Below the pieces are notes generated by a model that had not been told where the DNA came from, made no database searches, and saw nothing but the letters and a program-made list of their open reading frames with translations. Below, piece by piece: positions 1,103 through 9,220 of a stretch of 40,806 nt of DNA (its first letter is position 1; each line of letters opens with the position of its first letter). Made by a program: the position numbers and the translations under genes. The stretch comes from Lachnospiraceae bacterium (GTDB lineage Bacteria; Bacillota; Clostridia; Lachnospirales; Lachnospiraceae), in assembly GCA_024695605.1 (NCBI GenBank), contig JAILHW010000155.1, positions 1 to 40,806 on the forward strand, written 5' to 3'.

Positions 1103-4100
1103 TTACTTGTTCATTTTGATCTCGTTTTTGATCTCTTTGTGATTGTCGTTTTGCAGATCGTTATTTCCGTTGTTCTTGTGCTCCAGCTTATTCTGTGCGG
1201 CTTTCAGGCCTTCTTTATGGAAGTCCTCGGCAAGAGACGAAAAGGAGCGATAACCGATGGCAAAGTCCCTCAGGACAGACTGCTTAAGGACAGGAGGAAG
1301 GCATTTTTTGAATTCCTCGGACTGGCTGATGGTTTTGATCTGTTCCCTGTAGCCTTCTTTGTTCTGGGGGCGAAGTGCATTATAGGTTTTACTGTGATTA
1401 CTGTTCAGCAGTTCATCCAGCGAAATGGCAGCCAGGGCTTCCCGTGCCTTCTGCTGCTCCTGAGGGCTTAAGGCGGAGGGCTCCTTGAAGCTTAATTCGT
1501 TTAAGACCTTCACAGCCTCCATAGCTCCCTGGGCACTGTTTTTCTGCAGCTGGTTTTCTCCGTTTTCGATGCTGGATTTGAAACGCTGGTTTAAGAGTTT
1601 GGCTTGACTGTTTGCAGCCTGCTGCCAATTATAGCGTTTGTCCTCGGCTTTCAGAAGAGCCTCCATTCGTTCCAGAACCTCTTCGTTTTTCTTCATGGCG
1701 CTGATCCTGCGTTTGGATTTTTCATCGGCATTCTCGCCCATCTTGTTCTGGCGTTGTTTTCTCTTATAGTAATCGCCTATGGATCCTTTTGCCGCAGCGA
1801 TCTTTGCCTGAAGATCCCGGATCGCCGCCCTGTTTTGATCAAGGTCGTTATCATCCCTGTTTTTCAGGAAACCGGTGTATGCCTTGGAAAGGGATTCCAG
1901 ATCCTTCTGGGCTTTGGAATACTCACCGCTTCCCAGATGAACATTTCTGGTGGCCTCGTCTGCAAGACGGATACAGGAACTAAGATCATTATCAATACTC
2001 CGTGCCTCTTCCTGTTGCAAGATCTCCGGTGCATAGTCTTTCAAAAAGGCATCCCGGGTAGCTTTCATATATTCTTTTTGTTCGGGCTTTGCGTCCTCGG
2101 GAAGAGCAAGATAGAGGGAAGCCAGTTTATTGGCCATCATATTGTATCCTTCGGTGCCCATATCCTCGGGATGATTCATAAGCACCTGCAGATAGGTTTT
2201 CTGTACGGCTACCAGCGCCAGCGGGGTCACCTTTTCCTTTTTCCGGCTTGCTGTTTTGATGACATAGTCCGAACGTTCTATGATGTTCAGATAGTCGGGC
2301 TTATGGTTTTTGATGTAAGCGGCGCCGTCCAGGGAAGGGCCGATCTCTCTTCCGTACATATCAAGCTGGGGAAGGCCGGCGATCATGGCATTTAAGTTAC
2401 GATCCTCATCCTTTACCACCAGCAGGTTTCGGATAGTATCCTCCCACATGATCAGATCTTCGTGTGTGCGGCCTACATATTCCAGGGGGTGAAGCCGGCC
2501 GATTTCGTTTAGCATCATACTGGTGGATACGTGGTTGGCGATGGTCTGTGCCATGGCAAGATTATCCGCCTGCAAAGTCGGATCCGCTTCCAGTACGCTG
2601 GGGCCCACAATGGCTCTGGCAAAGCCGTAGATGGGGCCGTGCAAACGAAGCTCATCTGCTTTTCTTCTCATTTCTCCTTCGGCAAAAAACAGATCCACGC
2701 TGTCCTTGAAATTCAGATTCCTGGTAACCTCCGTGAAGGTGTAGGGTTTCATATTTTCCATGGTGGAGGTGATCACGGAACCGGTGGGATTCTTCAGATA
2801 GTCCTCTACCTCAATATTATTTAATTCCAGATTACGATAGATCAAAAATACCGCGTTGATCTGGGAGGTAGTCCGAAACTTTGTGGTCATATCCGTGGGG
2901 ATATCGGAGTTGCGAATGGAATCCATGTTACCGGGATAGAGTTTTTCATCCTTGCTGAAATATTTCTCGGCAATTTGGTGAAGCTGCTGCATATCCTCGT
3001 AGGTCTTTTTATACTCTCTGCCGGCAGCCAGGATCTGATCGGCATTGCCGCTCTCCATGGCTGCTTCCATGGCCTTTTGTTTTTTAATGAGCTTTCTGTA
3101 GGCATATTCCTTATTCAGGTCTTCACCGGTGCCAAGGCCGTCCGCCTTCATGTTCATTTCCTTCATCTTATTAAGCATCAGACGAAGGCCCTCTTTTGTC
3201 TGATCACTCAGGGTGATCTTCTTTTGAAACAGGGTTTCCAGCGTTTTTTCCTTGCCCTTGTTTATGACTACGTAATCATTGCGGAGGTTATGGTGCTGAT
3301 GAGAGAAGTTTACAAGCTCACCATTCATAAACTTATCCATATGCCCTTCCGTGACAGCTGTGGAGGCAGCGTTTTCCACGTCCATATGGTCCTGTTCCTG
3401 GGCCTTGCACTCATCTCTGGCATTGTCTTTAAGACCTGTGATGTGATCGCCCGCGAAGGTCAGAAGATCTTTATATTCTTCATCATCTTTGTACTTGTCG
3501 GGAGCGTTTTGGATGAGCTGCTGTGCCAAAGCCCGCTTGGGGTAAGTATATTGCTCGCTGATGTCCGTATCGATGATATCCTTGTAGGCTTCGACCTCAT
3601 CAGCGATCTGCGCTGCTGCCTCCGGGGGCATATTTGCCTCCAACTCTTCAAAATAGACAAGCGTCTCCTCGGCCTTTATGCTTTTCATGGCATAGGTGTG
3701 CATGGCAATGCACCAGATCTTGTCATAAACATCCGTGGGAAACTTTCCGGCGTTTTTCTGATCCGTTACATAATTTAAGACGGTATACTTATTTTTCAGG
3801 AAATCGGTTTTTTCCTGCTCTGACTTTAAGTTCTCCGGCAGAAGCTCAGGGTGCTCCTGAAGATGGCTTCTGAAAAGGTTGAAAAGGCTATTATCCAGAT
3901 GGGATCCGCTGGTAACTTCATTCATCCTTTCTTCGCCGATGGCTTTTTTCAGGGCATCCTCCATCTGCTGCCGGGAAAAGGGATAGTTTTGCACACGGGT
4001 TTCGATGAAATGCAGTTTTCTGCCAGCTTTTCGTTTGGCTTTCAGCTGATCCAGATACTCTTTGGTCTGTGTGACCTTATCCGGCATTGCCTTTTTCTCC

Positions 4101-4153
4101 AGTGCAGTTATATTATCTTTGCACTGTTTATAAAGATCGGTTAATCGTCCCAT
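1103..4153 (-). CDS. Large, predicted mostly helical cytosolic protein of unknown function (~1016 aa)
   Basis: Long ORF; start at MGRLTDLYK preceded by AAAGGAGAGAAAACC; charged, heptad-like sequence without obvious signal peptide or TM segment. Confidence 0.75.
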   Translation of the reverse strand: MGRLTDLYKQCKDNITALEKKAMPDKVTQTKEYLDQLKAKRKAGRKLHFIETRVQNYPFSRQQMEDALKKAIGEERMNEVTSGSHLDNSLFNLFRSHLQEHPELLPENLKSEQEKTDFLKNKYTVLNYVTDQKNAGKFPTDVYDKIWCIAMHTYAMKSIKAEETLVYFEELEANMPPEAAAQIADEVEAYKDIIDTDISEQYTYPKRALAQQLIQNAPDKYKDDEEYKDLLTFAGDHITGLKDNARDECKAQEQDHMDVENAASTAVTEGHMDKFMNGELVNFSHQHHNLRNDYVVINKGKEKTLETLFQKKITLSDQTKEGLRLMLNKMKEMNMKADGLGTGEDLNKEYAYRKLIKKQKAMEAAMESGNADQILAAGREYKKTYEDMQQLHQIAEKYFSKDEKLYPGNMDSIRNSDIPTDMTTKFRTTSQINAVFLIYRNLELNNIEVEDYLKNPTGSVITSTMENMKPYTFTEVTRNLNFKDSVDLFFAEGEMRRKADELRLHGPIYGFARAIVGPSVLEADPTLQADNLAMAQTIANHVSTSMMLNEIGRLHPLEYVGRTHEDLIMWEDTIRNLLVVKDEDRNLNAMIAGLPQLDMYGREIGPSLDGAAYIKNHKPDYLNIIERSDYVIKTASRKKEKVTPLALVAVQKTYLQVLMNHPEDMGTEGYNMMANKLASLYLALPEDAKPEQKEYMKATRDAFLKDYAPEILQQEEARSIDNDLSSCIRLADEATRNVHLGSGEYSKAQKDLESLSKAYTGFLKNRDDNDLDQNRAAIRDLQAKIAAAKGSIGDYYKRKQRQNKMGENADEKSKRRISAMKKNEEVLERMEALLKAEDKRYNWQQAANSQAKLLNQRFKSSIENGENQLQKNSAQGAMEAVKVLNELSFKEPSALSPQEQQKAREALAAISLDELLNSNHSKTYNALRPQNKEGYREQIKTISQSEEFKKCLPPVLKQSVLRDFAIGYRSFSSLAEDFHKEGLKAAQNKLEHKNNGNNDLQNDNHKEIKNEIKMNK

Positions 4154-4300
4154 GGTTTTCTCTCCTTTGTATATCAATCTGAAATGATTTTTTTCGTTAC
4201 ATCTATCATACAGGAAAATAGGAAAAATGGTTGCATAAATTGTAAGAAATCGGAAAAAATGCTATGATAGTACTATCATCAAAAAAAGCGAGGTATGCGT

Positions 4301-5080
4301 ATGAACGGAAGGATCCATTCTTTGGAAAGCTTTGGAACCGTGGACGGACCCGGTACCAGATTTGTGGTCTTTGTGCAGGGATGTCCCATGCGGTGTGCGT
4401 ACTGTCATAATCCGGACACCTGGCCCATGAACGGCGGGGAGGAGATGAGCCCGGAATACATCATAGAACAGTATGAGCGCAATGAGCCCTTTTACAGAAA
4501 TGGAGGCGGGATCACGGTGACCGGTGGAGAGCCGCTGATGCAGCCGGATTTTCTCATCGACCTGTTTACACTGGCCAAGGAAAAAAATATCCATACCTGT
4601 ATCGATACTTCGGGGATCGCTTATTCCCCTGACAATGCTTTTATCAAGGAGAAGCTTGACCGTCTGATGCCCCTGACGGATCTGGTGATGCTGGATATCA
4701 AGCATATCGATCCCGAAAAGCATTTGTGGCTGACAGAGCAGAAGAACGATGGTATCCTGGCCTTTTGCTCTTATCTGAATGAAAAGAAGGTGGATATGTG
4801 GATCCGCCACGTTGTCGTACCGGGTATCACGGATGATGACAAGTACCTGTATGATCTGGGATATTTCATCGGACAGTTTACGAATCTCAAGGCCCTGGAT
4901 GTGCTCCCGTATCATGATATGGCAAAGCCCAAGTATGAAAAGCTGGGCATGGAGTACAAGCTCAAGGATACGCCGCCTATGGACAAGAAAAAGCTGGTGG
5001 AGAAAAAGCAGGTCATCCTGAATGGGATCAAAAAGCGAAGAGCCGAGATGCCCGATGTATTTCCTCCAAAGCAGTCATGA
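4301..5080 (+). CDS. pflA: Pyruvate formate-lyase-activating enzyme (radical SAM)
   Basis: GTVDGPGTRFVVFVQGCPMRCAYCHNPDTW with the CxxxCxxC cluster motif and GGEPLMQ; SD GAGG favours the ATG at 4301 over 4295. Confidence 0.95.
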   Translation: MNGRIHSLESFGTVDGPGTRFVVFVQGCPMRCAYCHNPDTWPMNGGEEMSPEYIIEQYERNEPFYRNGGGITVTGGEPLMQPDFLIDLFTLAKEKNIHTCIDTSGIAYSPDNAFIKEKLDRLMPLTDLVMLDIKHIDPEKHLWLTEQKNDGILAFCSYLNEKKVDMWIRHVVVPGITDDDKYLYDLGYFIGQFTNLKALDVLPYHDMAKPKYEKLGMEYKLKDTPPMDKKKLVEKKQVILNGIKKRRAEMPDVFPPKQS

Positions 5081-5086
5081 TGATAA

Positions 5087-5121
5087 AAAAATCCCCTGTT
5101 CGCAAGGAACAGGGGATTTTT
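5087..5121. terminator. Bidirectional intrinsic terminator between convergent pflA and the split pfl operon
   Basis: AAAAATCCCCTGTT-cgcaagg-AACAGGGGATTTTT. Confidence 0.9.
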
Positions 5122-5141
5122 ATTGCCTGATCGGCTATTTC

Positions 5142-5384
5142 TTACAGTGACTCATGGAACGTACGGGAAATAACGTCGTTCTGCTGCTCCTGTGTAAGCT
5201 TTACAAAGTTAACTGCATAGCCGGATACACGGATGGTCAGCTGGGGATAGTTCTCAGGATGCTTCTGAGCGTCCAGAAGAGTCTCCCTGTTGAGTACGTT
5301 TACGTTTAAGTGATGGCCGCCCTTGGTTGCATAGCCATCCAGAAGATTTACCAGGTTTGTTACCTGAGCTGCATTTTCTGCCAT
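5142..5384 (-). CDS. Stand-alone PFL glycyl-radical domain protein (80 aa, GrcA-like)
   Basis: [56 protein letters not shown] contains the PFL glycyl-radical motif RVSGYAV; SD AGGAGGAAAGAAAA before ATG. Confidence 0.93.
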
Positions 5385-5403
5385 TTTTCTTTCCTCCTGT
5401 TTT

Positions 5404-5607
5404 TTATTCTTGTCCGTCCAGTCCCTCGTGGAGGGTAGGAACGCTGCAGGCAAGCGGATTGGTCGAGCAATCAACACATCCCATGGTCTCTACGTTTTTA
5501 GAGCCCGCAAGAGTCTCGTCCACATCTACGTTTACGTGGCCGACGCCTTTTTCCATCCCGCCGTCAAGCTGTCTGATCAGATCGTCGATCATTTGGTTTT
5601 CATTCAT
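5404..5607 (-). CDS. 67-aa Cys-containing degenerate paralog of the PFL glycyl-radical domain
   Basis: [33 protein letters not shown] aligns with the N-terminus of the downstream 80-aa protein; SD AGGA upstream; ends 19 nt before the next start codon. Confidence 0.75.
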
Positions 5608-5629
5608 GCACTTGTCCTGCCTTTTCGAT

Positions 5630-5747
5630 GAAATACATGTTTCAAACTCGTAAACCCGTGCTTTGCACTTACTGTCTGCTTCGCAGACGGTTTACTCGTG
5701 ATGCCGCCGGAAAACCAAATGCTCATTTCATTCGCACTTGGTTTTCC
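5630..5747 (-). other. Structured intergenic RNA between the PFL core and the small PFL-domain ORFs
   Basis: GGAAAACCAA/TTGGTTTTCC stem (5709-5718 / 5738-5747); GTAAACC/GGTTTAC (5650-5656 / 5689-5695) enclosing GTGC-TTT-GCAC and GTCTGC-TTC-GCAGAC; GAAA/TTTC at 5630-5643. Confidence 0.6.
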
Positions 5748-5760
5748 ATTGCTGCGGTTC

Positions 5761-7803
5761 TTATTTGCTAAGATCCAGTTCGATGTCGCCTGCGAATACC
5801 TGATCCTCTTTACCAAGAGCATTCGGGATGATAGAGAAGGTATTGGAGATACCATCCTGTGCATACTCGAACGGAAGCTTGGATACGGAAGAAAGGGATG
5901 CAACTGCACCGTGGGTATCACGACCGTGCATCGGGTTAGCACCGGGTGCGAAAGGCTGGCCTTTCTTACGTCCGTCAGGAGTGTTACCGGTTGCCTTACC
6001 GTAGGTTACGTTAGAGGTAATGGTCAGAACGGACATGGTGGTGAAGCCGTTTCTGTAGGTATGATGACGACGAAGCATGGTCATGAAGGTCTCTACCAGG
6101 TCATGAGCCATCTTGTCTACTCTGTCATCGTCATTACCGTATTTCGGGAACTCGCCTTCGGTCTTGAAGTCAACAATGATGCCGTCCTCATCACGGATCG
6201 GGGTAACCTTCGCATACTTGATAGCGGACAGGGAGTCAGCTACTACGGAAAGTCCTGCGATACCCGTTGCGAAGTAACGAAGTACGTCTCTGTCATGAAG
6301 AGCCATCTGAGCTCTCTCATAGCAGTACTTGTCATGCATGTAGTGGATGATGTTCAGGGTATTTACATAAACATCTGCAAGCCATTCCATCATATCGGTG
6401 AACTTGGAGTATACATCATCATAATCCAGAGGGCCGTCACCTTCTACAGGACGATACTTGGGACCAACCTGTTTCTTGGTAACCTCATCGATACCACCGT
6501 TCAAAGCGTACAGCAGGCACTTAGCAAGGTTTGCACGAGCGCCGAAGAACTGCATCTGCTTACCGATTACCATGGAGGATACGCAGCATGCGATACCATA
6601 GTCATCACCGTGGGTCACTCTCATCAGATCATCGTTCTCATACTGGATGGAAGAGGTCTTGATGGACATCTTAGCGCAGAAACGCTTCCAGTTCTCAGGA
6701 AGTCTGGTGGACCAAAGAACAGTCAGGTTCGGCTCGGGAGCGGGACCTAAGTTGTTCAGAGTGTTCAGATAACGGAAGCTGCTCTTGGTAACCATGTGAC
6801 GTCCGTCAACACCAACACCGCCGAGGGACTCGGTAACCCATACCGGATCGCCAGCGAAGATCTGGTTGTACTCGGGAGTACGAGCGAATTTTACGCAGCG
6901 CAGCTTCATGATGAAGTGATCTATGAACTCCTGAATCTGCTCCTCGGTAAAGGTACCGTTCTTCAGATCTCTCTCTGCATAGCAGTCGATGAAGGTAGAG
7001 GTACGTCCAAGGGACATAGCAGCACCATTCTGCTCCTTTACAGCGGAAAGGTATCCGAAGTAAGTAGCCTGGATAGCTTCCTGTACGTTCTTAGCAGGTC
7101 TGGAAATGTCGCAGCCGTAGGAAGCAGCCATTTCCTTCATCATCTTCAGAGCTATCATCTGCTCGGAAAGCTCCTCACGAAGACGGATCACATCATCGGT
7201 CATAACGCGGCCGGTGGAATCCTTCTGTGCCTGCTTATCCTCGATCAGTCTGTCGATACCGTAAAGAGCGATTCTTCTGTAGTCGCCGATGATACGGCCA
7301 CGGCCGTAAGCATCCGGAAGACCGGTGATAACATGAGAGGAGCGGCAAGCTCTCATCTCAGCATTGTAAGCATCAAAGCATCCTGCATTGTGAGTCTTGC
7401 GATGTACGGTGAAGAACTCGGAAATCTCAGGATCAACGGTATAACCATTGTCAGCGCAAGCCTTCTCTGCCATACGGATTCCGCCGTAAACCTGCATAGA
7501 GCGCTTGAAAGGCTTGTCAGTCTGGAAACCTACGATGGTCTCCTTGGATTTGTCAAGATAGCCGGGGCCATGGGATGTGATGGTGGAAACCACTTTGGTA
7601 TCCATATCAAGCACGCCGCCTGCTTCTCTCTCCTGCTTGGTCAGGTCCATAACCTGTGCCCAAAGGTCCTTGGTGTTCTGGGTGGGGCCGGAAAGGAAAG
7701 AATCGTCGCCGTCGTACGGAGTGTAGTTCTTCTGGATGAAGTCACGTACGTTGATCTCGTCTTCCCATTTACCGCCAGTAAAGCCGTTCCATTCTTCTCT
7801 CAT
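5761..7803 (-). CDS. pflB: Pyruvate formate-lyase catalytic core, naturally lacking the C-terminal glycyl-radical domain (680 aa)
   Basis: [13 protein letters not shown] start with AGGAGG upstream; active-site Cys pair in [27 protein letters not shown]; ends [27 protein letters not shown]. Confidence 0.95.
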
Positions 7804-8196
7804 TGGTAAATGCCTCCTATAAATGTATTTTTTTGCAGTGATCCCAAAGTCAGGAATCATTACTGTTCTAATTCAGAAGTATAATAGATTTGGAAAGACA
7901 AAGTCAAGGCGGGGAAATGTTCTTTTTTATATACATATTATAAGGAAAAGAGTGCGAAAACGGTTTCTTTCGTGAAATGTGACGAAGGAATCTGTATTTT
8001 GTATACAACAAATGGTGGTTTTTCGTTACTTTTGTACAAGGATTAGTGGATAAAAGGGGATAAATGGCAGATTGAGGATCCGGCGCGGCCGAAAAAAGAG
8101 AAAAAATGGCGCTTTAAGGCAGGACAATATTGACCCCGAAAGGATAGTTTGTTATGATATCGCAAACGAATACTATAAAAAAGTGAGGTATAAACG

Positions 8197-8397
8197 ATGG
8201 CACATGAAGCTGTAAAAAGAGATATGACCATTGCCGAGATCATGGTAAAGGATCCGAATGTGGTACCGATCCTGCTTTCCACCGGAATGCACTGCATCGG
8301 CTGTCCGGCTTCCCAGGGTGAGACCCTTGAGCAGGCGGCTATGGTACACGGCATCGACATTGACGATCTGATGGATGCGATCTATAACGCAGAGTAA
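8197..8397 (+). CDS. DUF1858-domain (hybrid-cluster-associated redox disulfide type) small protein
   Basis: [56 protein letters not shown]: CxxC and the typical DUF1858 pattern. Confidence 0.88.
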
Positions 8398-8403
8398 GAA
8401 CAA

Positions 8404-8440
8404 AAAAAGCACCCGAAGCCCAGAAGGCCGGGTGCTTTTT
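8404..8440. terminator. Bidirectional intrinsic terminator
   Basis: AAAAAGCACCCG...CGGGTGCTTTTT. Confidence 0.88.
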
Positions 8441-8455
8441 CAATGCTATGATCGA

Positions 8456-9220
8456 TCAGATCTTCGAAAGCGCTTCGATGGTATTGTCCTGCAGGATCAG
8501 ATCGAAATGCTCCTGCATATAGGAGATCCTGGAAGCGTTTACGCTTGTTACATGTCCGAACTCGGTAGCGGCATTATAGACTCTGGCAAATTCCTTTTGT
8601 CCCATGCTGCCGGAGGAAAGCAGAAGCTGATACGCGCCCTTCGGCTTGCGGTACAGCGTAGCAGGCTCGCTGTAGAAGGCCTTAACGCTTTTGGCAAAGG
8701 ATACCAGATTGCTCAGGCTGTCGCTCTCTAGGATGCAAAGGATCTTTTCCTCTTTTTCCGATGCATCGCCGGCGCTCTCTCCGGATCCGGTATCGGACTG
8801 GTTTTGACGCCGTTCAAAGGAAGCCTTGACCTCCTTGAGCATATTGATCATGCCCTCTGCAAGCTCATTGATGCTGCCGGGTGCATTGTCACCGGAGAAG
8901 GGCAGGATGCCCTCGGTTTCACTGTTATGCACAGAAGGGGCAAACCTTGAAAAGCGGGTATCCAGCTCTTCCGGGTCCTCCACCTTGGTGATGATCAATA
9001 CGATGCAGTCGGAACTGACCGGAATGGCTTCGATCACAAGGGGGATGTCCTCCGCTTCAAAGCCGCATTCATATTCTGCCTGCCGCATCATATCGCGGAA
9101 CAGGTTTTTTGCTTTTTCTGAGCCGTATGCCAGCTCACTGATCTTCAGTTGTCTGTTGGCCAGATCGTCGCCCGTCAGGGTGCAGCGGATCTGTCTGTCA
9201 TTTACACGTTCTATCTTCAT
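8456..9220 (-). CDS. mecA: Adaptor protein MecA-like
   Basis: MKIERVNDRQIRCTLTGDDLANRQLKISELAYGSEKAKNLFRDMMRQAEYECGFE, and a C-terminal domain typical of MecA; SD GGGAGGTGAATGAT. Confidence 0.88.
   Translation of the reverse strand: MKIERVNDRQIRCTLTGDDLANRQLKISELAYGSEKAKNLFRDMMRQAEYECGFEAEDIPLVIEAIPVSSDCIVLIITKVEDPEELDTRFSRFAPSVHNSETEGILPFSGDNAPGSINELAEGMINMLKEVKASFERRQNQSDTGSGESAGDASEKEEKILCILESDSLSNLVSFAKSVKAFYSEPATLYRKPKGAYQLLLSSGSMGQKEFARVYNAATEFGHVTSVNASRISYMQEHFDLILQDNTIEALSKI

Follow-up and report, generated by a model that had tools for sequence, protein, structure and literature searches.

What is a gene for a 67-aa protein doing between the two parts of a split pyruvate formate-lyase (PFL)? 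PFL is a main pyruvate-cleaving enzyme of strict anaerobes, and oxygen destroys it via its glycyl radical. Many gut bacteria make it in separate pieces. We analyzed a stretch of 40,806 nucleotides from a Lachnospiraceae bacterium (contig JAILHW010000155.1, positions 1 to 40,806; hereafter, the window), in which the ORF lies between a PFL core that has no radical domain and GrcA3, which supplies the glycyl radical on a separate chain. An initial annotation, made from the sequence alone, had read the ORF as a degenerate copy of the radical domain that had lost the radical glycine and gained thiols, and had suggested a placeholder or chaperone, an oxygen-protection plug, or a redox sensor. The features of the locus are listed in Table 1.

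Table 1. Features of the split-PFL locus, in window coordinates.
Feature	Position	Strand	Remarks
PFL core, split	5761..7803	-	680 aa from MREEW; ORF open to 7860
67-aa Cys-tail subunit of split PFL (proposed)	5404..5607	-	ATG start 5605-5607
GrcA-like helix-strand module, residues 1-32 (proposed docking module)	5512..5607	-	hhalign versus GrcA3 alignment
Cys tail, residues 39-64	5416..5493	-	pN/pS 0.093; motif also fused to PFL cores elsewhere
GrcA3, autonomous glycyl-radical subunit, 80 aa	5142..5384	-	NF038360 159.1 bits versus cutoff 158
Terminator-like site 3' of GrcA3	5087..5121	.	perfect 15-bp inverted repeat, common to convergent activase gene
PFL-activating enzyme (radical SAM)	4295..5080	+	convergent; TIGR02493 293 bits

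The PFL core aligns to E. coli PFL as far as residue ~681 and GrcA3 aligns to residues 680-758, so the enzyme is cut exactly at the start of the radical domain. The active-site Cys pair of the core, C406/C407 (IACCVSS), is encoded at 6583-6588, and the radical Gly of GrcA3, in RVSGYAV, at 5220-5222. We scanned positions 5050-5800 for terminator-like sites and found only the one 3' of GrcA3, with none between the core, the 67-aa gene and GrcA3, which fits a single transcript of the three genes. Between the core and the 67-aa gene, the sequence can also pair in a 14-bp inverted repeat (5709-5747; loop of 11 nt), which is not terminator-like, and Rfam gave no match in window positions 4000-8500. 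We note several neighboring features: the gene of a 66-aa DUF1858 protein lies upstream of the PFL core and points away from it (8197-8397), a DUF1858-like-looking gene also lies 3' of the activase in another split-PFL locus (L207), and a 1024-aa ORF whose family is not obvious on reading (1103-4177) adjoins the activase gene. The window's own genome holds a second, 94% identical GrcA3 gene (G000:C246:23832-24071; L209 5830-6075), and stand-alone GrcA3 copies away from any PFL core also occur in several relatives (L210-L215); the stand-alone second GrcA3 is possibly a spare radical subunit.

We examined the conservation of the ORF. Homologs of the 67-aa protein are present in about 100 of 397 Lachnospiraceae genomes, about a quarter (E<1e-10). 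In one-per-species genomes, 304 loci were confirmed, among them those of the named strains Eisenbergiella tayi DSM 26961 and Acetatifactor muris DSM 23669. Beyond the family, the gene occurs elsewhere in the order and, within the rest of the class, in a few families; no homolog was present in 199 further genomes of the phylum, and plasmids and phages gave no match. Its frame is nearly always open, with a few shortened copies. In 29 ungapped coding sequences, pN/pS was 0.18 over residues 1-28 and 0.093 over the tail (residues 39-64), with 0.55 in the linker that joins them; the Cys tail is under stronger purifying selection than the GrcA-like part. Selection and conservation together rule out a pseudogene or chance ORF, and the existence of the gene, as called in the initial annotation, is borne out by its homologs, its open frames and pN/pS values of 0.09-0.18 in its two conserved parts. 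A non-functional remnant of a duplicated radical domain would explain the loss of the radical Gly segment, but we regard it as extremely improbable given such a low tail pN/pS over highly diverged synonymous sites and the retention of the gene in hundreds of species.

The surroundings of the gene are equally constant. In the best 80 loci, the preceding gene encodes a PFL core in 79 cases and the following gene encodes GrcA3 in 79, and the activase gene is usually near; two loci depart from this, one at a contig end (L039) and one with no core by the pattern used (L097). Split PFL thus adjoins a gene with conserved cysteines in many genomes, the adjacency that the initial annotation had named as a sign of function. 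No named family had been recognized at that stage, and we found none: the 67-aa protein has no Pfam match up to E 10, PF01228 (Gly_radical) included, and no NCBIfam family, scoring 17 bits against NF038360 (cutoff 158). A PDB profile search with the protein returned nothing relevant and no such small subunit, and a literature search, confined to open-licence papers, turned up no description of the subunit or of its Cys tail.

The protein consists of two parts of different origin. The first, residues 1-32, shares its ancestry with the beginning of GrcA3 (hhalign 96%, E 4.6e-9), in agreement with the N-terminal alignment proposed initially. The C-terminal alignment, of PTLHEGL with SRTFHESL, did not hold, as the profile alignment stops at residue 32; from about residue 39 onward we detected no similarity to the radical domain, and the PTLxxGxD sequence taken for a radical-domain end belongs to the Cys tail, which occurs without radical-domain sequence. 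The radical motif RVSGYA is absent. Hence the protein is, as suggested, a thiol-bearing paralog of the radical domain, matching its first part and deprived of the radical Gly segment, but it is more than a degenerate radical domain, because its C-terminal half is an independent, more conserved Cys module that is fused to cores elsewhere. In its start and its operon, the 67-aa protein is like GrcA3/GrcA (YfiD; NF038360, TIGR04365), and both it and GrcA (YfiD) are thought to bind PFL by a helix and a barrel strand; unlike GrcA3, it is without the RVSGYA radical loop and the C-terminal helix, and has a dithiol tail instead. The strand in residues 1-32 is a putative one, assigned by likeness to strand y-beta1 of YfiD, which has been proposed as a substitute for PFL barrel strand beta10 (PMC8683613).

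We aligned 12 diverse homologs to define the tail. V39, D46, C47, A53, C54, P57 and L59 are invariant and T58, G62 and D64 nearly so (a few residues of the first module are also invariant), with C47 and C54 spaced as Cx5-6C. The motif of the tail reads DC-x4-6-AC-x-x-P-[TN]-L-x-x-G-x-D. In the window, C44 is encoded at 5476-5478, C47 at 5467-5469 and C54 at 5446-5448. The CxxC pointed out in the initial annotation is not deeply conserved: C44, which completes it, is clade-specific and confined to nearer relatives, and it is C47 and C54 that are invariant in the 12 sequences. In two lineages (L015 and L016) the homolog terminates directly after a CxxC, so that the dithiol is kept and the PTL end is gone.

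Small Cys-containing subunits with Fe-S clusters exist among glycyl-radical enzymes, and those of benzylsuccinate synthase and 4-hydroxyphenylacetate decarboxylase (BssB/BssC, HpdC) are encoded with their enzyme, as is the 67-aa protein. A metal- or Fe-S-binding accessory subunit of this kind could use C44, C47 and C54 plus a fourth ligand in the window's clade. However, only two Cys are invariant, no other His or Cys is conserved near them, and versions with just the CxxC or a single Cys occur. The 67-aa protein also differs from BssB/BssC and HpdC in having no cluster-type motif and in being built on a radical-domain paralog. A cluster takes four Cys ligands, where one 67-aa chain offers two invariant ones, and only a dimer could supply them. 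With no Fe-S match in Pfam or NCBIfam either, we consider metal binding unlikely.

The same tail is also found without the small gene. In split-PFL genomes that have no adjacent gene, Cys tails are fused to the C-terminus of the core (e.g., GDCANMACNIPNIEESID, LDCPDEACRIPNLMEGLD and DGCGDMACKVPTLHKGIDD), as they are in other families of the class (DCDNGACSSPTLFEGLD), and one fused group reads PDCACCEPN, a CACC without the PTL end. The fused tail takes up at the point expected for the start of a radical domain. Tails on a protein of their own come with the GrcA-like module, and tails fused to the core do not have it. Two split PFL cores without a radical domain have been solved (PDB 38la and 38lb, both 'Formate acetyltransferase'), so that, together with the NCBIfam model for GrcA3, split PFL as such is already known and is being studied by others. 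The 38la_A core terminates at SLGKE, without a tail, and 38lb_A continues for ~43 residues past the core, with the readable part ..FGECDMCEMKELDDVS; the 38lb depositors may have seen a tail. What is novel is a radical-domain paralog that has come to carry a dithiol tail, the latter being a feature of split PFLs in general.

We took a census of 140 Lachnospiraceae genomes, 56 of which encode split PFL. A tail with at least two Cys is present in 56/56: as an adjacent gene in 34 (shortened to the terminal CxxC in 2), fused to the core in 20, and as an unlinked gene in 2 (G008 and G160). Association of the tail with split PFL is thus near universal in the family, and the position of the 67-aa subunit in this system is well supported. 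The core itself carries a Cys tail in 20 of the 22 genomes without the adjacent gene versus 0 of the 34 with it (p 3e-13, a value that ignores relatedness). The small gene occurs in 36/56 split-PFL genomes and 0/83 others; one incomplete MAG (G012) has the small gene, with GrcA not found. At the class level, no tail was detected on three split PFLs (G611, G673 and G574; two of these genomes are near complete) and a fourth has CC only (G614), and a phylum-level split PFL (G813) shows just one Cys, within NFACSEPN. Split PFLs without a detected tail imply that the tail is not strictly required for split PFL.

These distributions bear on two further explanations. The protein could be a peptide precursor, or have some other function unrelated to PFL catalysis, and sit in the operon by chance: it is short and Cys-containing, its N-terminus is leader-like, and unlinked copies exist (L182, L181, L188 and L009). 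Against this stand the fusion of a like tail to PFL cores, the near-perfect co-occurrence with split PFL, and the absence of the small gene from the sampled non-split-PFL genomes other than the incomplete MAG, which together make it very unlikely. In two species of one genus, the unlinked copy (L182 6596-6901; L181 3-299) lies directly upstream of a MoxR-type AAA ATPase-looking gene. Alternatively, the protein could be a competitive placeholder without chemistry, its module filling the radical-domain slot of one protomer to give half-of-sites activity or a silenced core, with the Cys incidental. In favor of this explanation, the module is homologous to the radical-domain segment from which a barrel strand comes (PMC8683613); yet the fused tails have no module and retain the Cys, so the shared feature is the tail and not a plug, and we find a placeholder distinctly unlikely. 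The three functions suggested initially are all conceivable; the fusions favor a role at the PFL core over a free-standing redox sensor.

To see how the two layouts are distributed among cores, we built a tree from 69 PFL cores. Split PFLs stand apart from intact PFLs (support 99/97). A single clade of fused-tail cores is rejected (p-AU 3.8e-5), and fused and separate tails have thus interchanged repeatedly; the main fused group requires at least 5 changes on supported branches and 9-10 on bootstrap trees. Six independent pairs could be drawn on supported branches, with the core tail in the expected direction in 4.8 of them on average and never in the opposite one (p 0.06; too few pairs for significance alone).

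We propose that the 67-aa protein is a third subunit of split PFL, which docks on the open barrel and brings a dithiol tail to the active site, a reading that we hold with moderate confidence. Residues ~1-32 would imitate the first helix and strand of the radical domain and attach to the open PFL barrel at, or close to, the binding site of GrcA3. The C-terminal ~26 residues would form a flexible dithiol tail (C47/C54, plus C44 in the clade) with the conserved P-T-L-x-x-G-L-D end, and would reach the active site with its Cys pair C406/C407. A tail fused to the C-terminus of the core would have no need of the docking module; since the module accompanies only separate tails, the simplest reading is that it is a docking device in place of a covalent tether. 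That the fused tail starts at the radical-domain start, and that the module imitates the first helix and strand of that domain, would both bring the tail to the opening of the barrel, close to C406/C407.

The proposed chemistry draws on ribonucleotide reductase. Class I ribonucleotide reductase belongs to the ten-stranded barrel superfamily of PFL, has active-site Cys, and uses a C-terminal Cys pair to reduce its active-site thiols. The tail of E. coli NrdA, C754-ESGA-C759-KI (CESGACKI), was confirmed against PDB entries. PFL tails such as CGDMACKVPT and CPDEACRIPN resemble it over ~8 residues, sharing a Cys pair, Ala before the second Cys and [IV] two positions after it; this is a resemblance only, and could reflect convergence or chance. 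Split PFL has a conserved C-terminal Cys pair, as does NrdA, with C47/C54 invariant and the tail fused to the core in 20/56 genomes. Given that the reductase tail reduces active-site thiols, the likeness leads us to suggest a dithiol arm at the PFL active site. The PFL tail differs in its conserved PTLxxGLD end and in that it can sit on a separate subunit, and we know of no reductase partner for it. PFL chemistry is redox-neutral and turnover requires no external reductant, and a redox tail would therefore serve protection or repair. It might act as a thiol-redox guard that reduces oxidized active-site thiols or gives hydrogen to quench a stray radical, and the small subunit may hold a core that has no GrcA3 bound in a protected, resting form. 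More tentatively, GrcA3 and the paralogous dithiol domain could be exchanged at one barrel site, so that an active radical state alternates with a thiol-guarded, oxygen-safe state through a swinging Cys arm like that of ribonucleotide reductase; such an exchange is possible but far from probable.

A different use of the same docking module would be assembly or activation, in which the module either holds the open barrel or serves to recruit GrcA3 or the activase. The Cys would then make a structural disulfide or a contact and would not act on the active site. The module and the operon position suit such a factor, as does the conservation of the P-T-L-x-x-G-x-D end beyond the Cys. E. coli PFL residues 696-733, together with the disordered YfiD N-terminus, are required for YfiD binding and activation (PMC8683613), and split systems may need a replacement. 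However, both Cys are among the best conserved residues, and the dithiol outlasts the PTL end both in the two genomes with the tail cut to a terminal CxxC and in the CACC fused tails; we judge an assembly factor rather unlikely. Returning to the dithiol subunit, AlphaFold models of in-frame read-throughs of the Eisenbergiella tayi proteins were of low confidence (core plus small protein, 752 aa, mean pLDDT 50.4; core plus small protein plus GrcA3, 843 aa, mean pLDDT 45.8), probably owing to shallow, close alignments.

A conserved thiol tail on nearly every Lachnospiraceae split PFL would be an unrecognized component of an enzyme central to fermentation, and might explain how these gut bacteria shield or reset it. 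It also suggests a device common to the PFL and ribonucleotide reductase branches of the barrel superfamily, and since fused and separate forms both occur in nature, the idea can be tested directly. We note two families of related small proteins. Proteins of ~65-90 aa that are unlinked to pfl and have a weak version of the helix-strand start (L267-L276; L179, 2012-2257; L180, 2400-2612) end in a nearly invariant YHHGRCDVGSP[WF]AKG; they have no Pfam family and occur in 10/90 Lachnospiraceae genomes, 9 of them with split PFL. A second family, with the tail KCCxxYGR.ANETVGLLDMYTD and likewise unlinked to pfl (L176-L178 and L262-L264; L176 1953-2261 on the reverse strand, L177 2055-2372, L178 2015-2275), is found in 3/90 genomes, all with split PFL.
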